Part shown: positions 15,660-18,011 of the stretch, piece by piece
Position numbering within the stretch: the first letter of the stretch is position 1
Layout: the number at the start of each line of letters is the position of its first letter
NCBI GenBank assembly: GCA_009778065.1
Contig: WRKM01000004.1
Span: forward strand, 1 to 64,000
Direction of reading: 5' to 3'
Length of the DNA stretch: 64,000 nucleotides
DNA from: Oscillospiraceae bacterium
GTDB lineage: Bacteria; Bacillota; Clostridia; Oscillospirales; Ruminococcaceae
The notes under the pieces: generated by a model
The model's input: the letters and a program-made list of their open reading frames with translations, nothing else
The model's database searches: none
Told to the model about the DNA's origin: nothing
Made by a program: the position numbers and the translations under genes

Positions 15660-16145
15660 CTAAACTAAACTTTCTTCCCCCGGAATGGTCTTGACCGTAT
15701 CAATGGCACCTTTTGCGTTCGATGTCGGTTTTGCGGCGGCGGGGGCTTTTTTCGCCGGAGGGGTTTTCTTGGTGGAGGAAATTCCCTTTTTCAGCTTTTT
15801 TTCGGCATCCTTTTTTTCAGAACCCGACAAAGCCATTTTATCAAGCTCAAGAGCCATGTTAAAGTCGCCCTCAACTTGAATTATTCCGTTATCAACGGCT
15901 TCCTGCAAGGTGAATCTCGAATTTGCAAGTTTGATAAAATCCTCGCCCGATGCTATCAGCAGTGCGTTTTTATCAACGTAGTCATACGGAGCGACTTCGA
16001 GAATACCTCCACGGAACGCAACATAAAACGCACCGCCTCCCTCGCCTGTTATGTTAAATTGAAACGCGAAATCGCCACACAGCTTGCTTTTATCGGCTTT
16101 AGAATAAACTTTTTTGACATCAGCAAAAATTTTCTCGTAAGTCAT
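15660..16145 (-). CDS. SCP2 sterol-binding domain protein with Lys/Ala/Pro-rich C-terminal tail
   Basis: FAFQFNITGEGGGAFYVAFRGGILEV...ASGEDFIKLANSRFTLQEAVDNGIIQVEGDFNMALELDKM; tail KKTPPAKKAPAAAKP. Confidence 0.75.
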   Translation of the reverse strand: MTYEKIFADVKKVYSKADKSKLCGDFAFQFNITGEGGGAFYVAFRGGILEVAPYDYVDKNALLIASGEDFIKLANSRFTLQEAVDNGIIQVEGDFNMALELDKMALSGSEKKDAEKKLKKGISSTKKTPPAKKAPAAAKPTSNAKGAIDTVKTIPGEESLV

Positions 16146-16376
16146 AACGACACTTCCTTTCGTTTAATTTTGTGCATTTTCAGCCTACTCGTCAACTTAT
16201 AAAGTTATTATACCACAAACTATAGTAATATGCAATACATATTTAATACAAAATTTAGGCGGATTTAAACCGTATATTTGAAATATAGATTAATGCTTAA
16301 AATCGGGATAATTACATAGGTTTATACCAATACCCCGCAAAAAGAAGGGAGGTTTAGTATAAAATGTTTTTAATTG

Positions 16377-16405
16377 TTGACAAAAGAGGAAAGATTATGT
16401 ATAAT
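16377..16405 (+). promoter_or_regulatory. Consensus sigma-A promoter of the mgtE leader transcript
   Basis: TTGACA (16377-16382), 17 bp, TATAAT (16400-16405). Confidence 0.8.
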
Positions 16406-16438
16406 ATAAATAAGGTATTTATGGAAGGAGGCGTTTTT

Positions 16439-16537
16439 GTGCGTATAATGAATTTTGACGACCCGTTACCGCCCCGAAGTAGCAACAAGGTAGGGAACAT
16501 GAAAATAAAAAACTGCATAAAACCGCCGCCGTTTTAA
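16439..16537 (+). CDS. Putative mgtE leader peptide MRIMNFDDPLPPRSSNKVGNMKIKNCIKPPPF
   Basis: GTG start 7 nt after AAGGAGG (16425-16431); alternative ATG 16448. Lies between a consensus promoter and an intrinsic terminator, upstream of mgtE. Not in the supplied ORF track (<60 aa). Confidence 0.6.
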   Translation: MRIMNFDDPLPPRSSNKVGNMKIKNCIKPPPF

Positions 16538-16548
16538 AAATAATAATC

Positions 16549-16580
16549 GGTCGCGTATTTATGCGCGGCTTTTTTATTTT
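16549..16580 (+). terminator. Intrinsic terminator/attenuator in the mgtE leader
   Basis: GTCGCG (16550-16555) pairs with CGCGGC (16564-16569), short loop, then TTTTTTATTTT. Confidence 0.7.
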
Positions 16581-16652
16581 CATATTCCTGTATCGAATCG
16601 GAACATAATACACGGCAGGCTACGTAAAAAATGTAAAGGAGTATGAAAAAGC

Positions 16653-18011
16653 ATGAGAGACTTTGAAATTTACGAAGAAATGCTCGACAACAAGCAGTAT
16701 AACGCACTCAGAAACGAGTTAACAGATGAAAACCCGGCTGACATATCGGGACTCATCGAAAACATTCCGGTAGACAAGGCGGTACTGATTTTTCGTATGT
16801 TGCCAAAGGATATGGAAGCGGAGGTTTTTGCGAACCTCTTTCCCGATGTACAGGAAGCATTAATCGGAAAACTAAGCGAGACGGAAATACGCTCGATTAT
16901 CGAAGAGCTTTTCCTCGATGATGCGGCGGATTTTATAGAGGAAATGCCTGCGGGAATCGCCAAAAAGGTTTTAGCCACCGCAAAACCCGAAACCAGAGAA
17001 GAAATAAATCGACTGTTAAAATACCCTGAAGACTCGGCGGGTAGCATAATGACGGTCGAGTATGTGGATTTAAAAAGCGAGATGACGGTACGCGAGGCGT
17101 TTTCACGCATACGCAGAACAGGCACGGATAAGGAAACGATTTATACTTGTTTTGTTGTTGACTCCGAGCGCAGGCTTGTAGGGGTCGTAAGCGCGAAAAC
17201 ATTAATGCTTGCCGAACGTGATGAAATTATCGGCGACATAATGGATGATGTAAACCTTGTTACCGCCGAAACACTTGAAGACCGCGAAGTGGTTGCCCAA
17301 AGGGTTAACAAATATGACCTTTTGAGCATACCTGTCGTGGATTCCGAAAAGCGTTTAGTGGGGATTATCACCATTGACGACATAGCCGACGTTGTTGAAG
17401 AAGAGGCAACGGAAGACTTTGAAAAAATGGCGGCTATGCTGCCGTCCGAAAAACCGTATCTTAAAACAAGCGTGTTTGAGCTTTTCAAAAATCGAATAGG
17501 CTGGTTAGTCGGGCTTATGATTATGGGAATGGGAACGGGGGTAATATTAAAAGTTTATGAAGATGTTTTGCTTGCGGTTCCGCTTCTGATTGGGTTTGTA
17601 CCGATGCTTACGGACACCGGCGGCAACGCGGGCAGTCAAAGTGCAACTTTGATTATACGCGGTATGGCGGTTTCGGAAATATCATCTTCTGATTTTTTGA
17701 AAGCCGCATGGAAAGAAATACGCATAAGCTTAATGGCGGGCGTTGTTTTAGCGGTTGTTGCGTTTTTGAGGGTTATTTTGTTTTATCACACCGAAACAGA
17801 ATTATTTTTAAAAGCCTCCGTGATTAGTATTACCATTATATTTACGGTATTTATGGCAAAGCTGTGCGGTGTTGCACTTCCCATACTTGCAAAAAAGTTG
17901 AATATAGACCCCGCCATAATGGCGGCACCGCTTATTACAACTATTGTTGATACCTGCTCGTTAGTCGTTTTCGTTATGATTGCGAAATTACTTTTAGGGC
18001 ATCTTATGTAA
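16653..18011 (+). CDS. mgtE: Magnesium transporter MgtE
   Basis: MgtE N domain, CBS pair, TM domain with PMLTDTGGNAGSQSATLIIRGMA. Confidence 0.97.
   Translation: MRDFEIYEEMLDNKQYNALRNELTDENPADISGLIENIPVDKAVLIFRMLPKDMEAEVFANLFPDVQEALIGKLSETEIRSIIEELFLDDAADFIEEMPAGIAKKVLATAKPETREEINRLLKYPEDSAGSIMTVEYVDLKSEMTVREAFSRIRRTGTDKETIYTCFVVDSERRLVGVVSAKTLMLAERDEIIGDIMDDVNLVTAETLEDREVVAQRVNKYDLLSIPVVDSEKRLVGIITIDDIADVVEEEATEDFEKMAAMLPSEKPYLKTSVFELFKNRIGWLVGLMIMGMGTGVILKVYEDVLLAVPLLIGFVPMLTDTGGNAGSQSATLIIRGMAVSEISSSDFLKAAWKEIRISLMAGVVLAVVAFLRVILFYHTETELFLKASVISITIIFTVFMAKLCGVALPILAKKLNIDPAIMAAPLITTIVDTCSLVVFVMIAKLLLGHLM

Follow-up and report, generated by a model that had tools for sequence, protein, structure and literature searches.

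Control of Mg2+ uptake through translation is well documented in enterobacteria, and in Firmicutes the M-box riboswitch is the textbook sensor and attenuator of mgtE. Within the leader peptide MgtL, inefficient translation of acidic and proline codons at low Mg2+ raises mgtA expression (PMC11552253, PMC11282234). Attenuators of the trp/ilv type, such as the ilvB uORF of Corynebacterium, use the position of a ribosome to choose between an antiterminator and an intrinsic terminator (PMC11109978, PMC10272879). Another RNA element, the published mgtE motif (SRC-65-1, PMC11109978), is a riboswitch candidate reported only from Thioalkalivibrio, and its stem holds the Shine–Dalgarno (SD) sequence and AUG of mgtE itself.

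Here, we describe a leader upstream of mgtE in a 64,000-nt stretch of DNA (the window, by which we mean the whole stretch analysed). Positions ~16413-16575 probably constitute a transcription attenuator of mgtE that is driven by translation of a 32-codon leader, with a pause at DDPLPP-CGA-AGT turning mgtE on. Like MgtL of enterobacterial mgtA, and like CorL and MgtM/MgtP, the locus places a short acidic and proline-containing leader ORF before a Mg2+ transporter gene, with control proposed to run through translation efficiency. Unlike in MgtL, the target is mgtE, the terminator is intrinsic rather than Rho-dependent, a stem (A:B) lies over the leader's own SD, and a CGA-AGT codon pair is constant across Clostridia; the sequence in common with MgtL is limited to the acidic-Pro theme. 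With trp/ilv-type attenuators the locus would share a choice by ribosome position between antiterminator and intrinsic terminator, as well as termination by ribosome-free RNA, whereas it differs in a leader without a run of codons for a single amino acid, an ion-transporter target, and a protector stem over the leader SD and start. The Thioalkalivibrio motif is also an RNA element before mgtE, but the stem in the window covers the SD and start of the leader.

The M-box (RF00380, gathering score), which likewise attenuates mgtE, was absent from the window, its genome, and all 71 genus genomes searched; this covariance scan agrees with an initial sequence-only reading, which had seen no M-box before mgtE. 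No Rfam family covers the leader, the literature searched holds no description of such an mgtE leader, and the mgtE leader of gut Clostridia is apparently undescribed so far. A conserved leader ORF before mgtE in many gut Clostridia would represent an independent solution to the problem that enterobacteria solve through translation.

Organization of the mgtE leader

A promoter 5′ of the leader ORF and a terminator 3′ of it lie within a single intergenic region, followed by the sole mgtE copy of the genome. The features, in positions on the window, are as follows.

16377-16405, + strand: sigma-70-type promoter, read from the sequence, with TTGACA (16377-16382), a 17-nt spacer, TATAAT (16400-16405), and an extended -10 TG
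16426-16432, + strand: leader SD AGGAGGC, with AGGAG invariant in 6/6 genomes
16439-16537, + strand: leader ORF with a GTG start and 32 codons, MRIMNFDDPLPPRSSNKVGNMKIKNCIKPPPF, kept in 6 genomes
16457-16483, + strand: codons 7-15, DDPLPPRSS, with [DE]DP[LI]P[PS]RS in 6/6
16475-16480, + strand: CGA-AGT, encoding Arg13-Ser14, with CGAAGT invariant in 6/6
16430-16442, + strand: element A, the leader SD/start region and partner of B in the RNAalifold stem
16515-16527, + strand: element B (GCATAAAACCGCC), the ORF end and partner of A or C1, with GYAUAAAAYCG in 6/6
16550-16569, + strand: intrinsic terminator hairpin, -10.2 kcal/mol, with 2 compensatory pair changes in the stem
16557-16564, + strand: element C1, the terminator loop and top of the 3′ arm and partner of B, with [UA]UUURUG[CU] in 6/6
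from 16570, + strand: U tract (TTTTTT) after the hairpin, read from the sequence, with a U tract in 6/6
16635-16641, + strand: mgtE SD AAAGGAG, read from the sequence
16653-18011, + strand: mgtE, a Mg2+ transporter/channel of 452 aa with Pfam domains PF03448 (MgtE_N), PF00571 (CBS), and PF01769 (MgtE)

The locus contains the components of a trp-type attenuator, namely an SD-led, translatable short ORF between promoter and terminator and a conserved intrinsic terminator. Promoter, SD, 32-codon ORF, hairpin with U tract, and mgtE were all found where the sequence-only reading had placed them. It had also put mgtE ~70 nt downstream of the terminator; the order is right, but the measured distance from the hairpin end to the mgtE start is 83 nt.

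TTGACA and TATAAT hexamers with a 17-nt spacer also precede the leader in the related genomes L120, L147, and L155, and among the six leader genomes compared, a clade-type promoter is absent at the corresponding place in L145 and L146. In L146 (1100-1300), where the leader begins ~10-20 nt past the end of another reading frame, the attenuator may work within a longer transcript. The minus strand of the window carries a divergent promoter-like stretch at 16195-16240 (TTGCATATTAC...TATAATAA), similar in L120, L147, and L155, which presumably serves the SCP2-domain gene at 15660-16145.

Conservation of the leader within the genus

We examined a genus sample of 71 genomes, 18 of which have an mgtE-like gene. 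The whole element was present in six of the 71 (the window, L120, L147, L155, L145 (= L031), and L146 (= L032)), with mgtE downstream each time, and the respective leader peptides are MRIMNFDDPLPPRSSNKVGNMKIKNCIKPPPF, MRTKNFDDPLPSRSRSLGSIKIKSSIKSLSL, MRTINFDDPLPPRSRRSEKIISSIKSPPL, MRITNFDDPLPPRSSNYSMRIIQSIKPPL, MRKVKKIKLAEDPLPPRSRLNETAEITSSIKSSSD, and MRITLVLEDPIPPRSSKCENKKQHKIVTPFALI. A covariance model recovered precisely these six from the 71 genus genomes (E 1e-28 to 1e-38), and in 394 genomes drawn from the order it matched only the window and L120. Six of its weaker matches (E > 1e-5) were inspected and rejected as unlike the leader, several of them being generic terminators. The leader is absent from L148 and L149, both close mgtE relatives; a strict DNA pattern run on 398 family genomes yielded, besides the window, only matches within other sequence and no SD-led leaders. 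Viral contigs gave no match to the leader pattern, and the window's genome holds no credible further copy.

Fourfold synonymous sites of mgtE are only 18-50% identical between pairs of genomes, with 7/77 constant in five genomes, which is near saturation; the conservation of the leader is therefore not a product of shared ancestry alone. Despite this divergence, the [DE]DP[LI]P[PS]RS motif and the SD/start have persisted, as have two RNA elements, and indels 5′ of the motif in the leader ORF are multiples of 3 across the six genomes. In the alignment with relatives that the sequence-only reading had proposed as a check, the small ORF and the terminator recur in five other genomes, which bears out, in 6 genomes, its claim of a conserved leader ORF and terminator upstream of mgtE. 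Its proposal that the terminal PPP acts as a stall or destabilisation point finds no support in the same alignment, as the leaders of relatives end in SLSL, SSSD, PPL, or PFALI.

RNA elements predicted to compete for pairing

The RNAalifold consensus of the six sequences consists of the A:B stem, which joins the SD/start to the 3′ end of the ORF, and the terminator. Element A of the clade is GGCGAUUUUAUGC and spans the SD/start. In the conserved structure, 89% of cells are paired, with 3 compensatory pairs versus 0.8 in shuffles, whereas slid structures reach 32-52%. The A:B duplex has a predicted energy of -20.9 kcal/mol, equalled by 0/2000 shuffles, and A:B is better than shuffles in each of the six sequences. 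Element B is conserved in L146 although it lies out of frame there, which argues that B is kept as RNA. Sequence comparison thus establishes the leader ORF, its motif, the A:B stem, and the terminator as conserved features of the clade.

The stem of the terminator varies with compensation (2 compensatory pairs), and its loop, including C1 (UUUURUGC), is nearly constant. A near-constant loop beside a covarying stem is more than a plain terminator would need. For the pairing of B with C1, 98% of cells can pair and double-sided changes are absent. As a bare duplex, B:C1 is no stronger than with shuffled A-rich sequence; for the four members of the clade in which B was set against the real downstream region, p values were 0.01-0.07. 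An antiterminator formed by GCCGC (16525-16529) of the PPP codons and GCGGC (16565-16569), as first suggested, has correct coordinates but is specific to the window, and A:B and B:C1 are the conserved pairings instead.

Conservation of CGAAGT and of B at the nucleotide level, together with the lack of an Rfam match, would also suit a riboswitch-like RNA that binds a ligand or protein and in which the ORF is incidental. We consider this quite improbable in view of the strong SD, the strict frame of CGAAGT, the kept amino-acid motif, and the in-frame indels before the motif.

Modelled ribosome positions and the proposed switch

We propose that ribosomes would set the competition among A (leader SD/start), B (last leader codons), and C1 (terminator loop and upper 3′ arm). 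Without a ribosome, A would pair with B, the terminator would form, and mgtE would be off. When the leader is translated to its stop codon, the terminating ribosome would cover B, and the terminator would again form and keep mgtE off. If ribosomes are held at DDPLPP-Arg(CGA)-Ser(AGT), a stretch that would be hard to translate, a ribosome waiting on the start codon would cover A; B, left free, would pair with C1, the terminator would not form in time, and mgtE would be on. Low Mg2+ would most likely favour pausing and so close a feedback loop. We infer a pausing site in the leader and, from the target gene and the likeness to MgtL, that Mg2+ would be the signal.

Partition functions with masked ribosome footprints, which describe equilibrium folding only and use assumed footprint sizes, were computed for all six sequences. 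In ribosome-free RNA, the terminator had a probability of 0.98-0.99 in 5/6 (L146, 0.07) and A:B of 0.89-1.00. With a ribosome at the stop codon, the terminator reached 0.98-0.99 in 4/6, compared with 0.85 in L146 and 0.14 in L147. The OFF state is thus far weaker than the model expects in L146 without a ribosome and in L147 with a ribosome at the stop. When A was masked by a ribosome at CGA with a second one behind it, the terminator fell to at most 0.04 and B:C1 rose to 0.69-0.78 in 6/6, for RNA up to 3 nt past C1. Once the full 3′ arm was included, the terminator was still almost absent in the window, L146, and L147, but regained 0.51-0.88 in L155, L120, and L145, so that antitermination in these three must be kinetic.

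A lone ribosome paused at codon 12-13 leaves A unmasked, and a second ribosome is needed in this clade. In 4/6 members, 33-36 nt separate a ribosome paused at codon 12-13 from a 70S on the start codon; as this spacing is about one ribosome, the paused ribosome could keep the one behind it waiting on A. CGA is codon 13 in four members and lies 4 codons further in L145 and 1 further in L146. As modelled, the switch follows trp-like attenuation logic, and B:C1 pairing with its dependence on ribosome position is supported by folding and conservation. The idea that ribosome position could decide termination, already part of the sequence-only reading, holds in predicted folding (B:C1 with A masked, the terminator otherwise), with exceptions in two of the six members.

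These folds bear on a sensor of the MgtL type, in which ribosome drop-off at DDP itself would switch mgtE on at low Mg2+. The EPDP of enterobacterial MgtL acts in this way on mgtA (PMC11282234, PMC11552253), and an acidic-Pro motif near the N-terminus, in MgtL style, is present in 6/6 clade members ([DE]DP[LI]P) and, beyond the clade, in L035, L036, L131, L136, L137, L143, L144, and L150. In the partition functions, however, RNA with A free folds into the A:B stem and the terminator. Drop-off would leave A empty in this way and so give OFF rather than ON, which makes simple drop-off the poorer fit here. Most clostridial leaders, moreover, lack acidic-Pro yet retain CGA-AGT, and we regard drop-off as unlikely for this locus.

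CGA-AGT leaders across Clostridia

We then turned to a set of 137 distinct regions upstream of mgtE, gathered by similarity to one MgtE; almost all are from Clostridia, and many are from MAGs. Acidic-Pro ORFs gave 18 matches on the forward strand versus 1 in the reverse control, and the hexamer with the top forward-over-reverse excess was CGAAGT, in 75 forward versus 8 reverse upstream regions. Short ORFs are common, and a chance ORF before an unrelated terminator could be entertained on that ground; set against these excesses, the promoter-ORF-terminator order in one intergenic region, and conservation far above neutral, it has next to no probability and is refuted by the comparative data.

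In 74/137 upstream regions, that of the window among them, a short ORF preceded by an SD carries CGA-AGT (Arg-Ser) in frame. Among strong-SD leaders, CGA-AGT is in frame 0 in 50/51, at codons 4 to 17, and early Arg-Ser pairs are encoded as CGA AGT in 70/85 cases; CGA makes up 7% of Arg codons in the counted window genes. Examples of Arg-Ser leaders are MDICGRSTKMDSDIHLR, MEGRSHKTESDGSHPEPKAE, MDGRSRRCSLRQNRI, MDAGGVISTEPRS, and MSYKSDDPLPRS, beside DDPLPPRSS of the window. Only a minority of this wider family has acidic-Pro codons. The DDPLPP motif stressed in the sequence-only reading is kept in the close clade, whereas the leader feature that stays constant across Clostridia is CGA-AGT. Inspection by eye gave CGAAGT no consistent pairing partner, whether in a conserved small hairpin or in a downstream ACUUCG.

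Such strict codon choice, frame, and position would suit a sensor at the codon level, in which slow CGA wobble decoding or a property of the tRNA reads the general state of translation or tRNA rather than Mg2+ itself. We consider this fairly unlikely: the target is mgtE in every case seen, which favours a Mg2+-related signal, and we know of no link between CGA decoding and Mg2+ transport. Conserved leaders of this kind would make it testable whether a ribosome can sense Mg2+ via a codon pair rather than through an acidic-Pro nascent chain.

Complementarity between the ORF end and the SD/start of the same leader reaches p<=0.05 in 59/74 CGA-AGT leaders and in 20/28 sequence clusters (window, p=0.01); leaders within one cluster are not independent. 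Since A sequences differ between clusters, this complementarity amounts to large-scale covariation. In the wider family, the median distance from the end of B to the stop codon is 3 nt, so that a terminating ribosome would cover B. Pairing of B with the downstream region reached p<=0.05 in just 11/71 family members, and we accordingly claim the B:C1 step for the window's clade only. In most other family members a terminator-like site is missing and the mgtE SD falls within predicted structure; this sequestration modestly exceeds that in shuffles (0.77 vs 0.62). A class-wide pattern for one subgroup matched two genomes, both with mgtE downstream.

Extending the proposed pausing mechanism beyond the clade, we suggest, at somewhat less than even likelihood, that a widespread, undescribed class of ribosome-based sensors controls mgtE across Clostridia: a CGA-AGT leader of ~30 codons whose last codons would close over its own ribosome-binding site, acting through a terminator in some lineages and perhaps a hairpin at the mgtE start in others, and reading Mg2+ (or ribosome state) via pausing at the codon pair. 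Leader hosts include the culturable [Clostridium] symbiosum, [Clostridium] asparagiforme, Hungatella hathewayi, Flavonifractor, and Anaeromassilibacillus. Leaders of the MEGRS type occur in L045, L050, L065, L066, L097, and L098, which represent [Clostridium] symbiosum, [Clostridium] asparagiforme, Hungatella, and relatives.

In L131 (1085-1244) and L137 (1106-1262), an M-box lies directly 5′ of an acidic-Pro leader ORF before mgtE, placing two Mg2+-related control elements in series. The minus strand of L150 encodes a diverged leader, MSSRCEEPLPRGMRIKPKSG, with a very strong A:B-like stem (-26.6 kcal/mol). Instead of the terminator, this leader is followed by a hairpin that covers the mgtE start codon, a possible switch of expression platform inside one genus.
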